Part shown: positions 32,207-38,944 of the stretch, one piece after another
Position numbering within the stretch: the stretch's first letter is position 1
Layout: the number at the start of each line of letters is the position of its first letter
The notes under the pieces: generated by a model
Seen by the model: the letters and a program-made list of their open reading frames with translations, nothing else
The model's database searches: none
Told to the model about the DNA's origin: nothing
Source of the DNA: Kutzneria sp. 744
GTDB taxonomy: Bacteria; Actinomycetota; Actinomycetes; Mycobacteriales; Pseudonocardiaceae
DNA: 38,944 bases
Direction of reading: 5' to 3'
Assembly (NCBI RefSeq): GCF_000568255.1
Contig: NZ_KK037166.1
Span: 4,731,947 to 4,770,890, forward strand
Position numbers and translations under genes: made by a program

Positions 32207-33043
32207 ATGCTGCGGCACATGCACGAGCAAGCCATCGCCCACGTGGCGTCGCTGGCGACGGGTGAGCCGGGGGATCGGGAGTTGCGGGTGACGCTGCACT
32301 TTCACCCCGATCGACTGGTGGCCGGGACGCCGATCCTGGAGCGGATGGCCGATGACGGCGTGTACCGGTCGCAGTTCGAGACGGGGACCAGCAACGGGGG
32401 GCTGACGGCGCATCCGGGTGGTGATCGGTGGCGGTGGGAGAGCCGGATCTTCGCGGGGGTCTATGACCAAGCGCCGGCCGAGGAACGGCCGAAGTACGGG
32501 TCGCTCAACTTCCGTCGACGCATCGTCGGCGGGTCACCGCGGTTCGGGTCGGCGTATCTGCGGTTGGCCGGTCATACGCTGGCCCGAACGACGTTCTGCT
32601 ATCCGGACAGCGTGTTCGAGCCGCGGGATTTCGGGGTGGCGGAGAGATTGTCGACGCTGATCGGGATGGCTGAGGCGGACGACAAGGACCTACTCGACGA
32701 CTACATCGAAGCCCACGTGCATGGTGTGGTCGACCTCGGGCGTGACGTCGAAGCTCTGGTGCTTGATCCCTGCTACCGCGGCACAAGAACGGAGACCGCC
32801 GCCAACGGGTTGGGCTGTCCGATCGAATGGCACGACGGGTTCAGCCTGACCACCGACGAACTGCGCCGGCACCCCGACTATCGCGGTGACGAGTTCGTGC
32901 GCCTCGGCCTGTCGCTGGCCCGTGACGGCCGGCTCGATCCGGGAATCATCGGCGACGCGTCACGGACGGGCCGTTACGACGAACAGGCGCTCAAACGGGT
33001 CTGGCATTACGTGGCCAGGTTCAGCGACGGCGGCGGAGGCTGA
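32207..33043 (+). CDS. DUF3626 domain protein
   Basis: 278 residues recognised as the DUF3626 family: LRVTLHFHPDRLVAGTPILE, DDGVYRSQFETGTSNGGLTA, PKYGSLNFRRRIVGGSPRFG, SAYLRLAGHTLARTTFCY, DLLDDYIEAHVHGVVDL and PCYRGTRTE. Several conserved His, Asp and Arg residues suggest an enzyme, perhaps a toxin-like ADP-ribosylating fold, but no function is established that I can name. No signal peptide. ATG 32207 directly follows the SURF1 stop. Compared with SURF1 its codon use is less extreme in GC, so it may be a later addition. Its last 23 bases overlap the end of the cobD fragment on the opposite strand. Confidence 0.82.
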   Translation: MLRHMHEQAIAHVASLATGEPGDRELRVTLHFHPDRLVAGTPILERMADDGVYRSQFETGTSNGGLTAHPGGDRWRWESRIFAGVYDQAPAEERPKYGSLNFRRRIVGGSPRFGSAYLRLAGHTLARTTFCYPDSVFEPRDFGVAERLSTLIGMAEADDKDLLDDYIEAHVHGVVDLGRDVEALVLDPCYRGTRTETAANGLGCPIEWHDGFSLTTDELRRHPDYRGDEFVRLGLSLARDGRLDPGIIGDASRTGRYDEQALKRVWHYVARFSDGGGG

Positions 33044-33232
33044 TGGTGAGGGCCAGGACGGCGGAGACGGCGGCGGAGGCGGCGCCGACGACGCGGGAAA
33101 GTTCCACCGCTCGGGTGACGTGGCCGGCGTCGGGGCTGCGGCCGTGGCCGAGGACGGGGCGTTCCTCGGTGCCGTGGGAGTAGACGGTGCGGCCGCCGAG
33201 GCGGATCTCGAGGGCGCCGGCGAAAGCTAGCC
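33021..33232 (-). pseudogene. cobD: cobD, C-terminal fragment
   Basis: On the minus strand this reads AFAGALEIRLGGRTVYSHGT, EERPVLGHGRSPDAGHVTRA and a final hydrophobic helix, ending at TGA 33021. This is the C-terminus of CobD/CbiB (adenosylcobinamide-phosphate synthase). It has no start of its own and is separated from the rest by AT-rich DNA. About 25-30 residues expected between the halves (the HPSPNAG region) are missing. Its end overlaps the DUF3626 gene by 23 bp. Confidence 0.85.
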
Positions 33233-33540
33233 ATCGCCCTACATCGTTTGTCTACAGGTGCCTCAAACGCAGTCCATATTTGAGGCGAAGGCTCGTGGCA
33301 ACGTGTTGAGCTACCGTAGTGAACCGATCCTCTCACCTTCCAACGCTCCCATCAAGGCGTGCACTATATGCATCCCGAGACGTGGACACTATAACTCATA
33401 GACCCGGATAAAGTTATACATCATCCTGCGTTTACAGTACAAGGACTTCAAACATGCGCGCACAAGAGGCAGCGACTTCATCAACTTGGAATACTAATGG
33501 AGAGAATTAATTCTAGTTACTAATGTTGGCATAACAAAAA
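33233..33540. other. AT-rich segment interrupting cobD
   Basis: About 310 bp with no gene. I count about 44% G+C over 33301-33540, against roughly 70% around it. It contains an inverted repeat GCCTCAAA (33260-33267) / TTTGAGGC (33279-33286). I see no transposase, tRNA, CRISPR repeat or clear terminal repeats, nor an obvious target-site duplication. It replaces about 75-90 bp of cobD rather than being a clean insertion. Confidence 0.8.
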
Positions 33541-34203
33541 CTAGTACGTCTGGTGGGCGCCGGCGGCGGTGAGCACGGCGGCGAGGCGGGAGGGGACGAG
33601 GTTGGCCACGTCGTCGAGGCGGGCGGCGGCCCAGCCGAACTTGGCGTAGCGGGCGGAGCGGTGCCCGACCATGGCGTCGAGGGTGTTGGCGGCGCGATAG
33701 CCGAGCAGGCCGGGCACGCCGGCCACGGCGCCCCAGAACAGGGGGGCGACGACGGCGTCGGAGGTGTTCTCGGCCACGGACTCGACGGTGGCCCGGGCCA
33801 GCCCGGCGGCGTCCAGGCTGGAGGGTTCGCGTCCGCAAAGGTTTGGCAGCCGCTCACGGGCGGCGGCGATGTCGCTGGCGTCGAGCTCACGGCCCATGGC
33901 GGTGCCCTCGGTGGCCAGGGAGGCGCCGCCGAGCACGACCCAGGTGGCGAGCGCGGTGGTGGCGACCTGCACTAGCGGCCGACGCCGGCCGAGCCGCTCG
34001 ACGGCGATGCCAGCGGCGACCGCACCCCCGGTGAGCAGGGCACTGTGCACAACGCCGGGGATCTTGTGGTCGCGGTACACGGCCCGTTCCAGCGCGGCGG
34101 CGGTGGTCCCGAAGGCGGCGACGGGGTGCCATCGCCTCGGGTCGCCGAACACCGCGTCGGCCGCCGTTCCGAACAGCAGGCCGACCGCCCTGGCAGCGTT
34201 CAC
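33541..34203 (-). pseudogene. cobD: cobD, N-terminal fragment (adenosylcobinamide-phosphate synthase)
   Basis: 220 residues from GTG 34203, recognisable as CobD/CbiB: FGTAADAVFGDPRRWHPVAAF at the start, with the conserved P-x-R-HPV motif. ESVAENTSDAVVAPLFWGAV, RAANTLDAMVGHRSARYAKF and LDDVANLVPSRLAAVL follow. The enzyme joins aminopropanol (phosphate) to adenosylcobyric acid in the membrane during cobalamin synthesis. The frame runs into TAG just inside the AT-rich segment, so about the last third is lost. The remaining part holds most conserved motifs but lacks the C-terminal membrane helix. It is divergent from the Jet genes (104-bp gap). Confidence 0.88.
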
Positions 34204-34307: not shown

Positions 34308-35876
34308 ATGTGGCCGACCGTGGAGCAGGAGCAGCACGTCCAGGACACCCTCGTGGGCGCGGAGTCGACCGATCGCCGGCTGCTGCTGTACGCGTACCTC
34401 CAGCCCCGCGAGCACCACCGCACCTATCTGACGACGATGCGCCTGTTCGCCTCGACGCTGCTGGCCGACCTGTCGGCCGGCGAGGTGGCGGCCAAGCTGG
34501 CGGCGGCCGAGCGGGAGGGGCTGATCGACCCGGGCGAGTCCCGGATCGAGACGGTCATCGCGCGGCTCAAGCAGCTGGTGGAGTGGGGCAACCTGGTGCC
34601 GGGCCGGCGCGAGGTGATCGCGGCCAGCATCGCCGAGTTCCAGCACGGCAGCGTGCGCTACCAGGTCAGCAAGCTGGCGGTGCGGGTCCAGCGGGACGTG
34701 GACGAGCTGCTGCGGGTGCCGGAAGGCGCCCGGGAGGTGTCCCGGGAGCTGCTGCCGGCCATCGAGCGCGGCCTGGGCGCGCTGGGCAAGTCGTTGTCGG
34801 ACGCGGTGTTCACCGAGGGCGGGCCGGGCGCGAAAAGGGCCCGGGAGGCGCTGGCCGAGCAGGTCACGACGCTGTTCCTCCAGCACGCCGAGCTCGCGGT
34901 GACGGTCCGCGACTTCTACGCCTACCTGGGCCAGATCGTCACGCGGCACCACCTGGCCCCGGACGAGATCTCCGGGTTCCGCAACCTGCTGGTCGAGTAC
35001 ATCCAGATGGTCGTGGAGGACGTGCTGCGGCACACGCCGGCCATCGCGGAGTCGCTCGGGCAGCTGGCGCGGGGCCGCGGCGAGCTGCTGCGCCTGCTGG
35101 GCCCAGCCAACGCCCTGGGTTCCGAAGACCTGGCCATCGAGCGCTCGCGCGGCCGGACCATCGCCGACTGGCAGGACCTGACCGACTGGTTCGTCGACCG
35201 TCCGGGTCGACCCAGCCAGGTGACGGCGCTACGCGAGGCGACCGGCCGCGCGATCGGCTCGCTGCTGGCGAGCGTGAAGCGGGCGACCTCGGGCGGCGGG
35301 CTGCTGCCGGGTCGCCGGGCCGAGTTGCTGAAGCTGGCCGGCTGGTTCGACGGGGCGACCGCGGACCAGGCGCACTCGCTCTACGCCGCCGCGTTCGGGC
35401 TCTATTCGGCCCGGAACCTGCTGCCTTCTCCGGAGCACGACGGTGACGACGAACACACTCCATGGCGCGACGGGCCGGTGCTCGATGTGACGGTCAGTGT
35501 CCGCAGCCGGGGTGACCGCGGCGCCCGGGGTCGGACGTCGCGGATCGTCGACGATCCGATCACCGAGCAGGCGCTGCTGGCCGACGCCCGCGCCGTGGAC
35601 AAGAAGCGCTCGGAGGCGGTGACCGAGCTGGTCGAGGCGGCGCCGACGATCGAGGAGAGCCGGCTGTCTCATGGCGCCCTCGACGTGCTGTGCGAGCTGT
35701 TGACGATGGCGATGGCCCAGCGCGAGCGGGCCGAGGACGTCGGCGCGGCGGCCGACCCGGTGCGCGGACTGAAGCTCACCGTCACTCCCGAGGAAGGCCG
35801 GACGACGACCATCAAGACCGCGGGCGGAACGCTGACCCTGCACAACGCCTCGGTCGCGCTGGAGGCCGGCGCATGA
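34308..35876 (+). CDS. jetA: Wadjet type II JetA (DUF2397, TIGR02677)
   Basis: About 522 residues, recognised as the DUF2397 family: LLLYAYLQPREHHRTYLTTM, IETVIARLKQLVEWGNLVPG, YQVSKLAVRVQRDVDELLRV, RDFYAYLGQIV and VDDPITEQALLADARAVDKK. Early helices resemble winged-helix kleisin-type folds. In type II Wadjet systems JetA is the kleisin-like subunit of an SMC complex that, with JetB, JetC and the nuclease JetD, senses and cuts small circular DNA such as plasmids. ATG 34308 is chosen; GTG 34320 is also possible, and neither has a clear ribosome-binding site. Its stop overlaps the jetB start (ATGA). No RM genes, toxin pairs or integrases are seen beside it. Confidence 0.88.
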   Translation: MWPTVEQEQHVQDTLVGAESTDRRLLLYAYLQPREHHRTYLTTMRLFASTLLADLSAGEVAAKLAAAEREGLIDPGESRIETVIARLKQLVEWGNLVPGRREVIAASIAEFQHGSVRYQVSKLAVRVQRDVDELLRVPEGAREVSRELLPAIERGLGALGKSLSDAVFTEGGPGAKRAREALAEQVTTLFLQHAELAVTVRDFYAYLGQIVTRHHLAPDEISGFRNLLVEYIQMVVEDVLRHTPAIAESLGQLARGRGELLRLLGPANALGSEDLAIERSRGRTIADWQDLTDWFVDRPGRPSQVTALREATGRAIGSLLASVKRATSGGGLLPGRRAELLKLAGWFDGATADQAHSLYAAAFGLYSARNLLPSPEHDGDDEHTPWRDGPVLDVTVSVRSRGDRGARGRTSRIVDDPITEQALLADARAVDKKRSEAVTELVEAAPTIEESRLSHGALDVLCELLTMAMAQRERAEDVGAAADPVRGLKLTVTPEEGRTTTIKTAGGTLTLHNASVALEAGA

Positions 35877-37114
35877 AAGACGTGCTCGACGGCCTCTCCG
35901 ACATCGACGCGGCCAACGTGGTCCGCTGCGCACGAGTGCTGCTAAGGCGGCCTTTGTTGCGTGCCGACGGACCAGATGGCGATCTGCTACCGCTGGTCTA
36001 CCGGCATCGCACGACCTTGCAGGACCTGTTCGCCGGCCTGCTGGCGTACCGGCTCGTGGTGGAGCGGCGCTTCGCCCGCCTGTACAAGCCGGGGCCGGGC
36101 GTGGACCCGACCCGGGGAGAGGCGACGCTGTCCCCGCGTGGCTACACCTACTTCGCGTTGACGATCGCCGCGCTGACCGGCGTCGGCCGACAGGTGCTGC
36201 TGTCCCGGCTGGTCACGGACGTGCGGGCGGCAGCGGTCGAGGCCGGTGTCGCCATCACGGACGACCTCCCGGACCGCCGCGCGCTGACGGCGGCGCTGCG
36301 GCATCTGCTGGCGTTGGGCGTGATCACGGAGACCGAGGGCACCGTCGCACCGTGGGGCACCGAGGGCCCGGCCGAGGCGCTGATCACCATCGACACCGAT
36401 CTGCTCGGCCAGCTGCTGTCCGGCCCGCTGCTGGAGGCGACCAGCCCCGACCACCTCATCGAGCTGGCCGCCCGGCCCGGCCCCCGCGGCGCCGAGCATG
36501 CCGTGCGCCGCAAGCTCGTCGAGAATCCGGTGGTGCTCCAGACCGATCTGCCGCCCGAACAGATGGAGTGGCTGCGGCGCAACCAACGTCGCGAATCGAG
36601 CCTGCTGGAGCGCAACTTCGGGCTGGTCACCGAGACGCGGCTGGAGGGCGTCGCGGTCACCGACCCCGAGGACTACCTCACCGACGTTCTGTTCCCCGGG
36701 TCGGGCACGGTCGCCCGGATCGCGCTGCTCGCGCTGCCGGAGCTGATCGCCGACCCGGATCCGGAGCTGTTCGCCGACGACGTCGAGCCGCCCGAGCCTC
36801 GCCCGGACGGGCGGCATCCCGTGACGTACGGCCAGGTCCGCGTGATCTGCGCGCAGCTCGTCGAGGACTATCCGGCAGCATGGTCGCGGCAGGCCACCGA
36901 CGACCTCGACCGGCTCACCAACGACGTGCTGGACCTGTTGGTGCGTATGGGACTGGCCGTGGACGACCCGGTCGACGGCTGGCTCGTCGCGCCGACCGCG
37001 CACCGCTGGGCGCCGCAGCCGGACGACACGCCGGCCCGCAGCGCCCCGCCGCCACCGCCGGCCGAACCCGAAGAGCCCGGCTGGTCCTTGTTCGATGGAG
37101 AAGGTGAGCAGTGA
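35873..37114 (+). CDS. jetB: Wadjet type II JetB (DUF2398, TIGR02678)
   Basis: 413 residues of the DUF2398 family: NVVRCARVLLRRPLLRADGP, then YRHRTTLQDLFAGLLAYRLV, FARLYKPGPG, LSPRGYTYFALTIAALTGVG, RRNQRRESSLLERNFGLVTE, PEDYLTDVLFPGSGTVARIA and a C-terminal winged-helix-like block ending in a proline-rich tail. JetB is the KITE-like partner of JetA in the SMC complex. The ATG at 35873 overlaps the jetA stop, and its own stop overlaps the jetC GTG (GTGA), so the three are translated in step. An upstream extension of the frame inside jetA is a shadow. Confidence 0.88.
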   Translation: MKDVLDGLSDIDAANVVRCARVLLRRPLLRADGPDGDLLPLVYRHRTTLQDLFAGLLAYRLVVERRFARLYKPGPGVDPTRGEATLSPRGYTYFALTIAALTGVGRQVLLSRLVTDVRAAAVEAGVAITDDLPDRRALTAALRHLLALGVITETEGTVAPWGTEGPAEALITIDTDLLGQLLSGPLLEATSPDHLIELAARPGPRGAEHAVRRKLVENPVVLQTDLPPEQMEWLRRNQRRESSLLERNFGLVTETRLEGVAVTDPEDYLTDVLFPGSGTVARIALLALPELIADPDPELFADDVEPPEPRPDGRHPVTYGQVRVICAQLVEDYPAAWSRQATDDLDRLTNDVLDLLVRMGLAVDDPVDGWLVAPTAHRWAPQPDDTPARSAPPPPPAEPEEPGWSLFDGEGEQ

Positions 37115-38944
37115 GCACACAGCGTTGGACGCTGCACCGCGGTGGCATCGTCAACGTGTGGCAGTACGCCGAGCAGGTCTTCGACTTCTCCGGCGGGCGG
37201 GCGATCTTCCAGGGCACCAACGGCTCCGGCAAGTCGCGCACGCTGGAGCTGCTGCTGCCGCTGTGCCTGGACGGGGACCTGCGGCAGCTGGGCTCGAAGG
37301 GCTTCGACACGGTCAGCATCCGGCGGCTCATGCTGGACGACTACGACGGCGGCCCGAACCGGATCGGCTACGCGTGGATCGAGCTGCGGCGCGGTGAGGA
37401 CGAGTACCTGACCTGCGGCCTGGGCGTGAAGGCGTCCAAGACCTCGCAGCAGATCACCGACTCATGGCGGTTCGTCACGTCGGCGCGGGTGGGCAAGGAC
37501 CTGCGGCTGGCCGGGCCCGACCGGGTGCCGATCGGGCCGGCGCAGCTGCGGGACCTGATCGGCGCGGACTGCATGTTCGAGGACGCGGCGTTCCGGGCCA
37601 AGGTGGCCGAGTCGGTGTACGGCGTGCCGGCGGCCCGCTACTCCGACCTGCTGCACCTGCAACGGACGCTGCGCAACCCGGACGTCGGCCTGAAGGTGCT
37701 GGAAGGCCAGCTGGAGCAGATCCTCTCGGACGCGCTGCCGCCGCTGGACTCGGCCATGGTCGAGGGCCTGGCCACCTCGTTCGACGACCTGGAGTCGATC
37801 CGGGAGAACATCACCCGCCTGACCACGGCCGACTCGGCGCTGACGGCGTTTCTCGGCACCTACTCCGGCTACGCCCTGGCCGGCCTGCGCGGCTTCGGCG
37901 ACAAGGTGGTCTCCAGCCGCAAGAGCCTGCTGTCGCTCGGTTCCGAGCTGGAGTCGTTGGAGCGCAAGCTCGGCTCGGCGCGGGACGGCCGGGTCACCGC
38001 CGAGCAGGCGGTCGCCGAGCAGGAGGCGCGGGACAGCCAGCTCGACGCGCGGATCGAGGCGTTGAAGGAGCTGCCGGCGTACCGCGGGATGCGGGATCTC
38101 CAGGATCGCGAGCAGCTGGTGGCCCGGTCGCGGTCGGCGGCCGAGGCGGCGCTGGACACCGCCGGCCGGCAGCGTGCGCAGGAGGATCGGGCCGTCGACT
38201 CGGTGCTGGCGGTGCTGCGCCGGCTCGGGCTGGACATCGACAGTGCCGACGAGCTGGCCGGGCACGCCCGTGAGCGGCTGATGATCGCCGGTCTCGACGG
38301 GGACCTGTGCCCCAAGGTGCCGCCGATGCCGCCGACCGACGCGCAGGTGGCGCAGGACCGGGTGCGGGCCAAGCCGGATCCGGAGGCCGAGCCGCTGACG
38401 ATCGACCGGCGGCTGCTGCCGGCGATCGATCCGCAGTCGCTGCTGGACACGTTGAGCGACGCCGGCCGGCAGGCCGAGCAGGTCGCGACGGAAGCCCGGC
38501 GGCGCAACGCATTGACGCTGTCGCTGCACGAGCGGGCGCTGGCCTCGGATCGTCAGCTGCGTGACGTCGAGGAGCTGCACCGCGCGGCGCGGCAGGCGCA
38601 GCTGACCGCCACGGAGGGCGCCGGGCGCCGCAACGAGGCCGGTCAGCAGCTCGCGACGGCCGTGGATGTGTGGCGTGAGCAGGCGCGGCGGTGGGCTGCC
38701 GAGGATGGGCCGCAGCCGCCGACTGCGCAGCGGTTGACCGAGGATCGCGGCGCGGCGCGGGCGGCGCGGGACAGCGTGCGGCAGTGGGCGGCGCCGAAGT
38801 CGCACGAGCTGCGGCAGCGCGTCGTGGGCACCGAGCAGCGGCTGGACGACCTGCGGGCGACGATCACCCAGTACGAGGCCGAGGTTGTCGCGCTGCGGTC
38901 CGGCGGCTCGGACGAGCAGTCGGATCCGTCGGCGTTCCACCGGT
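37111..38944 (+). CDS. jetC: Wadjet type II JetC, SMC-like ATPase (TIGR02680), 5' part
   Basis: 611 codons are visible and the gene continues past the window; TIGR02680 proteins are about 1,300-1,400 residues. The N-terminus QRWTLHRGGIVNVWQYAEQV leads into Walker A GTNGSGKS (about 35-42) and KSRTLELLLPLCLDGDL. The SMC-type region YSDLLHLQRTLRNPDVGLKV and ILSDALPPLDSAMVEGLATS follows. From about residue 270 on the sequence is mostly heptad-rich coiled coil. It should be the motor ATPase that extrudes DNA loops on plasmids. Start GTG 37111 has GGAGAAGG six nucleotides upstream. The Walker B and signature motifs, and jetD (DUF2399, TOPRIM nuclease), would be expected to the right. Confidence 0.9.
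   Translation, partial: MSTQRWTLHRGGIVNVWQYAEQVFDFSGGRAIFQGTNGSGKSRTLELLLPLCLDGDLRQLGSKGFDTVSIRRLMLDDYDGGPNRIGYAWIELRRGEDEYLTCGLGVKASKTSQQITDSWRFVTSARVGKDLRLAGPDRVPIGPAQLRDLIGADCMFEDAAFRAKVAESVYGVPAARYSDLLHLQRTLRNPDVGLKVLEGQLEQILSDALPPLDSAMVEGLATSFDDLESIRENITRLTTADSALTAFLGTYSGYALAGLRGFGDKVVSSRKSLLSLGSELESLERKLGSARDGRVTAEQAVAEQEARDSQLDARIEALKELPAYRGMRDLQDREQLVARSRSAAEAALDTAGRQRAQEDRAVDSVLAVLRRLGLDIDSADELAGHARERLMIAGLDGDLCPKVPPMPPTDAQVAQDRVRAKPDPEAEPLTIDRRLLPAIDPQSLLDTLSDAGRQAEQVATEARRRNALTLSLHERALASDRQLRDVEELHRAARQAQLTATEGAGRRNEAGQQLATAVDVWREQARRWAAEDGPQPPTAQRLTEDRGAARAARDSVRQWAAPKSHELRQRVVGTEQRLDDLRATITQYEAEVVALRSGGSDEQSDPSAFHR

Follow-up and report, generated by a model that had tools for sequence, protein, structure and literature searches.

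Does a row of jetA, jetB and jetC genes make a plasmid-cutting system when no gene for the nuclease follows? The question was raised by the right edge of a 38,944-nucleotide stretch of the genome of Kutzneria sp. 744 (the window, meaning the whole stretch analysed; G000:C1:4731947-4770890 of a single-contig assembly of 11,646,492 bp, 95.19% complete), where the initial annotation had placed a type II Wadjet locus acting against plasmids. According to the accessible text of two reports, the dimeric JetABC motor of Wadjet extrudes circular DNA and JetD cuts it at completed extrusion (PMC12647877, PMC12287153). In Kutzneria sp. 744 the three motor genes were present and no jetD was found, and we consider it likely that the locus encodes a nuclease-free, probably loop-extruding structural maintenance of chromosomes (SMC) complex descended from type II Wadjet.

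The window encodes JetA, JetB and JetC of type II Wadjet

All three genes lie on the forward strand. The product of jetA (DUF2397; 34308..35876; 522 aa) matched PF09660 (3.4e-124) and the PADLOC model JetA2 PDLC00541 (668 bits), and scored 153.3 bits against TIGR02677, below the cut-off of 165.85. The product of jetB (DUF2398; 35873..37114; 413 aa) matched PF09661 (1.2e-99) and, above the cut-off, TIGR02678 (131.6 bits). The SMC ATPase gene jetC begins at 37111 and continues past the window edge at 38944, which abuts a run of 100 N within the gene; the N-terminal 610 codons lie before this run and the remaining 716 aa beyond it (L002:6045-8195; an L prefix marks the loci read). The two pieces matched TIGR02680 over profile positions 1-374 (253 bits) and 629-1353 (363 bits), each taken singly below the cut-off of 462.85, and PADLOC JetC2 with 494 and 630 bits. 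All three ATPase motifs were present across the two halves, with Walker A (GTNGSGKS) at 37213..37236 on the forward strand and the signature LSSGET and Walker B LVLLDEAF beyond the gap. The assignment of the genes to type II JetA, JetB and JetC was therefore upheld, as were the 4-nt overlaps claimed for them, ATGA between jetA and jetB (35873) and GTGA between jetB and jetC (37111). By role, we take JetA to be kleisin-like and JetB KITE-like. Among named relatives, Kutzneria sp. CA-103260 has a JetA 96% identical to that of the window.

No jetD was found beside jetABC or elsewhere in the assembly

For comparison with relatives, 141 loci were read (60 picked to span genera, the 80 best of 99 named, and the locus itself), of which 118 had distinct jetA; all counts describe this chosen set and not frequencies in nature. 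With a JetD hidden Markov model (HMM), no JetD-like gene was detected within 5 kb downstream of jetC in Kutzneria sp. 744. The initial annotation had looked to a rightward extension of the contig for jetD, and a convergent PKD-domain gene was found there instead, ending 36 nt beyond the jetC stop. In the whole assembly the best TIGR02679 score was 12.8 bits against a cut-off of 196 and the best DUF2399 (PF09664) score 19.8 bits against 23.4, and DUF3323 gave no match at E 0.01. Thus the HMMs named beforehand agreed for the motor genes (PF09660 and PF09661, and TIGR02680 in its two sub-cut-off pieces) but not for PF09664. The outcome named beforehand as refuting, no jetD-like gene in the next few kilobases, was the one observed, and the claim of a working anti-plasmid Wadjet was not supported. 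The top sub-cut-off scores for TIGR02679 and PF09664 both came from a type I JetD (DUF3322 plus JetD_C; 17.8-19.8 bits for DUF2399).

Three candidates for the missing JetD were rejected: L005 is a type I JetD inside its own operon, L006 is a JetD_C-like protein in a different operon, and L007 looks, judged by eye, like a dehydrogenase. Matches of about 20 bits to the JetD model at the jetC end of several JetD-less loci were taken as spurious because the seed frames had extended back into jetC in another frame; they were gone when the seed frames were trimmed.

The absence is not peculiar to Kutzneria sp. 744: in none of the six Kutzneria loci read does a jetD follow jetC. That a jetD is concealed in the assembly gap is unlikely, since the equivalent spacing between the jetC halves is 63 nt in five of five other Kutzneria loci; this implies that about 21 JetC residues are missing and leaves no space for jetD, barring an insertion of the strain's own. 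The first called gene after jetC stands on the opposite strand within about 210 nt in five of the six loci, and a short reverse open reading frame (ORF) comes first in the sixth. A strong hairpin was seen behind jetC in four of the six, and also in two JetD-bearing Saccharopolyspora-type loci, among 18 loci inspected without shuffled sequences; a consensus scan found no terminator behind jetC. Because JetD-bearing loci have strong hairpins too, the hairpin was regarded as weak evidence for the end of the operon.

A control set was taken from the same genomes, namely the 30 DUF2397 loci of another clade that scored best (L008-L037). By comparison of coordinates, all 30 had a TIGR02679 hit no farther than about 8 kb away.

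The fate of jetD at the orthologous loci

A census of jetD was made over 5 kb downstream in the 113 loci with a readable jetC stop, counting the best ORF per locus only. A JetD-family ORF was present in 64 of them and absent from 49, each of the latter with no less than 4.4 kb of sequence available after jetC. Among the 64, 55 were full length, six retained the N-terminal domain only, two were DUF3323-TIR fusions and one was frameshifted (Lentzea L042). The N-domain-only proteins (182-235 aa) occur in Streptoalloteichus, Umezawaea, g22 and g11; of two compared with Pfam, one scored above and one below the DUF3323 cut-off.

Full length did not mean an intact acidic triad, scored as the E in CENP and the DxD in HGDFDW, with a metal-ligand role presumed from TOPRIM proteins generally: it was present in 28 of the 55 and absent from 27, namely all 15 Lentzea proteins, 10 of 12 from Actinokineospora, one from Umezawaea and one from g38. 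In Saccharopolyspora all 17 JetD proteins had the triad, and two further loci of the group had no jetD (L064, L133). JetC and JetD distances agreed closely (Mantel r 0.90, p 0.001, 55 loci), which argues that JetD was inherited mostly along with the operon. On the tree, its presence and absence required nine changes (Fitch) or 19 losses, counted as maximal JetD-less clades (Dollo). These counts overstate the loss in Saccharothrix, where a degenerate JetD is encoded at another chromosomal site in three genomes.

These displaced Saccharothrix genes, distant from jetABC, resemble the JetD of Lentzea (L185:8771-9775, minus; L186:8438-9442, minus; L187:8863-9864, plus); the jetABC locus was read for two of the three genomes and had no jetD. 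Several other arrangements were observed. In ten Lentzea loci (L040, L105, L108, L114, L130, L132, L137, L139, L140 and L146), 0.5 to 2.6 kb separate jetC from the degenerate jetD; in Actinokineospora inagensis a jetD-like gene has the opposite orientation to jetC (L142:16947-18053, minus); and in Streptoalloteichus hindustanus a Shedu (SduA_C) gene lies near the truncated jetD (L084:5563-6765, minus).

Genome-wide, DUF3323 was searched in 38 genomes, comprising 34 with a JetD-less locus that was read and four of g21 with the locus unread. It was absent at E 0.01 from 15, ten of them single-contig, and each of these 15 had exactly one DUF2397 match. Together with the 63-nt spacing in Kutzneria, these genomes argue that the absence of JetD is not merely an effect of assembly.

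An ordinary type II Wadjet with its nuclease supplied in trans, either by the type I JetD (at about 2818 kb) or by a JetD_C-like protein (at about 10796 kb), is an unlikely explanation. The genome does encode a complete JetA1-B1-C1-D1 (L181:3807-10471) and, in another operon, a JetD_C-domain protein of 520 aa, and the displaced Saccharothrix JetD proteins give the idea some precedent; however, the type I JetD belongs to a complete operon of its own and falls under the DUF2399 cut-off, and the 15 of 38 genomes without DUF3323 speak against it within the reach of a DUF3323 search.

jetABC and cobD have long stood side by side

The gene divergent from jetA is cobD/cbiB, and it is broken in Kutzneria sp. 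744 as had been noted. Its 5' part (33555..34203, minus strand; PF03186 2e-68, NF002276 3.6e-99) has an open frame of 220 aa that continues into a low-GC stretch and stops at 33541. That stretch (33225..33554; GC down to 0.45), delimited by blastn against five other Kutzneria and by the GC profile, is followed by the 3' remainder of cobD (33024..33224, minus strand), 89% identical to L080 3952-4152. About 330 bp of low-GC DNA thus replace about 95 bp of cobD, a break that was not seen in the five other Kutzneria compared; no strong terminal repeats were seen at 33225-33554. On the sequence evidence, the break is a separate, strain-specific event outside the Jet system.

An arrival of the operon by insertion in the SURF1-cobD neighbourhood had been proposed, and this was rejected. 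cobD lies divergent from jetA and within 1.5 kb of it in 114 of the 118 distinct loci (43-1479 nt, median 104), and the four loci without an adjoining cobD are all from Actinophytocola; the adjacency, together with the genus clades in the tree, argues that the operon was not brought by insertion in cobD. No cobD was found in the flanks of about 1 to 1.5 kb around the 30 control loci.

Close JetA relatives were seen only in Pseudonocardiaceae in searches of the family, the order and plasmids. The JetA query matched at 62% identity or more in at least 150 of 297 family genomes and at least 26 of 46 genera; the best match outside the family, among 150 genomes of the order, was 42%, and the best plasmid match, among the best 12 of 17 records, was 42.5%, on a Streptomyces plasmid. 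In a tree of JetA, JetB and JetC from 112 loci most genera grouped together, but g46 was mixed with Saccharopolyspora, and Actinosynnema with Saccharothrix and Kibdelosporangium. L122, which bears the name Rhodococcus rhodnii NRRL B-16535, nests in Kibdelosporangium and is probably mislabelled or a transfer. The genus clades and the agreement of JetC and JetD distances suggest that the operon is an old cobD neighbour in the family and has been inherited mostly vertically.

JetABC remains under constraint without JetD

Walker A, signature and Walker B were intact in all 110 JetC proteins read through; of the other JetC of the 118, that of the own strain is in two halves, the reading frame changes in two (L042, L078) and five are cut short by the end of a contig. 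The ratio of non-synonymous to synonymous substitution rates (dN/dS) between the window strain and five other Kutzneria was 0.053-0.14 for jetA and 0.057-0.21 for jetB. Median values for jetA/jetB/jetC in JetD-less genera were 0.08/0.086/0.144 in Kutzneria (jetC excluding the own strain), 0.061/0.092/0.091 in Allokutzneria, 0.086/0.105/0.097 in Kibdelosporangium and 0.114/0.135/0.13 in Crossiella; in JetD-bearing groups they were 0.191/0.267/0.267 in Saccharopolyspora and 0.21/0.247/0.28 in g38. All three genes stayed below 0.5 in all congeneric pairs used. Relative to cobD, over the measured genera, jetA ranged from 0.45 to 1.54 and jetC from 0.51 to 1.57; on this scale the JetD-less and JetD-bearing groups differ much less than in absolute dN/dS, and from these ratios JetABC after JetD loss appears constrained roughly like cobD, not more so. 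The degenerate JetD of Lentzea had a median dN/dS of 0.196, and this constraint suggests a non-catalytic role. Two JetD-less clades stand on supported stems, Kutzneria (six loci; 0.20) and Crossiella with Allokutzneria (eight loci; 0.14), which implies that JetABC survived beyond the loss of JetD.

These data bear on a second explanation, that the locus is a decaying remnant whose defence was no longer useful, with the nuclease lost and jetABC on its way out. The nuclease gene jetD is missing at many separate places in the tree, as the Fitch and Dollo counts indicate, a few copies carry frame changes, and the cobD of Kutzneria sp. 744 is itself broken; but the intact JetC motifs, the low dN/dS of all three genes and the supported JetD-less stems make decay improbable.

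DUF3323-TIR fusions at the jetD position

An ORF in which DUF3323 is joined to a TIR domain takes the place of jetD in three Saccharothrix: in NRRL B-16314 (L118:16723-17844, plus), in S26 (L135:18646-19749, plus) and in the genome G088 (L192:12828-13934, plus; 368 aa). The first two are 368-374 aa long, with DUF3323 (E 1.7e-24 and 1e-23) followed by TIR_2 (E 1.3e-23 and 1.2e-24). A search of 297 family genomes detected the fusion in G088 and in two others, G273 and G214, which are probably the same strains as L118 and L135. Its N-terminal domain is closest to JetD of the Actinokineospora/Saccharopolyspora type and not to that of Lentzea, so its source need not be the JetD of the lineage in which it occurs. 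PDB 3h16 (3e-33) and the NAD hydrolase AbTIR (8g83; 1e-31) were matched by the TIR part, and a glutamate after a tryptophan is aligned between it and 3h16; we take this glutamate to be the catalytic residue. A Wadjet motor, these proteins suggest, can be connected to an effector that does not cut DNA.

A third explanation, by analogy with these fusions and with the TIR effectors that the accessible text of PMC10586767 lists for Lamassu, is that JetABC in Kutzneria would sense foreign DNA and signal to an unlinked, unrecognised effector. It is the least probable, since no replacement gene common to most JetD-less loci was found in the 6 kb after jetC and jetC is followed in Kutzneria by the opposite-strand genes and short reverse ORF described above.

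A probable motor without a cutter

We therefore return to a nuclease-free SMC complex of Wadjet descent as the likely explanation. At the one locus jetD is intact-looking, worn, trimmed, fused, moved or gone among relatives, and this suggests a task for the motor in which no DNA has to be cut. JetABC would have retained the ATP-driven, loop-extruding motor known from Wadjet and, without JetD, would extrude and hold DNA with no cut. Human Smc5/6 silences extrachromosomal circles. By the same principle JetABC may load on small circular DNA and silence it; alternatively, it may serve as an accessory condensin beside Smc and ScpB, which are also encoded in the genome of Kutzneria sp. 744, as MukBEF/MksBEF do elsewhere. 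The handling of extrachromosomal DNA is slightly favoured, because some relatives retained the N-terminal domain of JetD or joined it to TIR. That a plasmid-defence SMC complex was converted to a non-cutting chromosomal machine, in one family and at one fixed locus, is put forward more tentatively and falls somewhat short of even confidence.

Several observations weigh against a nuclease-free complex of this kind. In an assembly that is 95.19% complete, jetC crosses a gap, and an element inside jetC of Kutzneria sp. 744 is possible. The type I JetD of the strain could act in trans, and the displaced JetD of Saccharothrix means that local absence need not be genome-wide absence. Outside the clade, no JetD was seen near a further JetA of g16 over the sequence examined, so the 30 control loci make no rule. 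The JetD-less Actinophytocola, which have left cobD, show high dN/dS for jetA/jetB/jetC (0.234/0.282/0.35); the highest jetA/cobD ratio sits in JetD-less g43; and lineage accounts for at least part of the lower absolute dN/dS values in several JetD-less genera. Copies in decay do occur, in Lentzea L042 with jetC and jetD broken and in Kutzneria L078, where the frame of jetC changes close to its end. Finally, no clear class-specific change was found at the JetD-contact surface of JetD-less JetABC, where the classes are confounded by phylogeny.

Comparison with known SMC systems

The locus shares with type II Wadjet (TIGR02677/02678/02680/02679) the families of its three motor proteins, the order of the genes, their 4-nt overlaps and the ATPase motifs. 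Solved JetA and JetC chains of this type are in 9qe0/9qe1, presumably the Neobacillus vireti structure; a type II Wadjet structure from that species is cited in the accessible text of PMC12647877. The locus differs from type II Wadjet in having no JetD beside jetABC, nor any in the assembly by HMM, and in adjoining cobD, unlike the 30 JetD-bearing control loci. With MukBEF/MksBEF it shares a composition of SMC, kleisin and KITE without a nuclease, a likeness of composition only in which the roles of JetA and JetB are presumed; the Kutzneria proteins, however, best match TIGR02677/02678/02680 and JetA2/JetB2/JetC2, and none of the MukB, MukE and MukF models matched at E 0.001 in library scans of the Jet proteins. 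The type I Wadjet/MksBEFG of Corynebacterium glutamicum, where plasmid copy number rises on deletion of mksB, mksF or mksG according to the accessible text of PMC10123090, has the same general design but its own subunit families (DUF3375, DUF4194 and DUF3322 plus JetD_C). In Lamassu, too, the core is SMC-like and the effectors, TIR among them, vary, for which the JetD-TIR fusions are a parallel, whereas the C-terminal piece of JetC scores 630 bits with JetC2 and 27 bits with LmuB.

Wadjet was reported in 42% of Actinobacteria, with many systems in the chromosome arms of Streptomyces (PMC10482375, accessible text); the terms JetD and Pseudonocardia are absent from that part of the text. Within the open-access literature, which leaves most subscription papers outside its scope, no description was found of a JetD-less or JetD-TIR type II Wadjet in the texts available, nor anything on Wadjet in Pseudonocardiaceae or on Wadjet lacking JetD.

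Neighbouring genes and other systems

Directly 3' of jetC, genes for a PKD-domain protein and a beta-helix protein are convergent to it (L002:8232-11480). A row of genes at L182:1676-11485 of the same genome includes those for a 1021-aa protein with weak similarity to mad3, for the 520-aa JetD_C-domain protein and for a 980-aa protein that weakly resembles defence proteins of the helicase type; this may be an undescribed defence operon. In g16 (L178-L180) the further type II JetA is followed by a 1740-1751-aa SMC ORF and an NB-ARC/TPR regulator (L179); the SMC ORF corresponds to a JetC extended at its N terminus by a JetB-sized stretch, and L179, the sole stretch searched, gave no DUF2398 match. 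Two other Kutzneria (G109 and G142; L188 and L189) have a DUF3323 gene beside ORFs of jetABC size, apparently separate type II Wadjet systems.

Implications for the family

DUF2397, DUF2398 and SMC genes in a row are no proof of a plasmid-cutting system. In Pseudonocardiaceae, one syntenic locus with its nuclease kept, disabled, trimmed, replaced, moved or lost turns speculation into a set of strains that can be compared, and the nuclease-free JetABC loci make the proposed step from Wadjet to MukBEF testable. If the more tentative idea of a conversion to a non-cutting chromosomal machine is true, the family would offer a living example of the proposed step from Wadjet to MukBEF-like condensins, and of the swapping of effectors on an SMC sensor.

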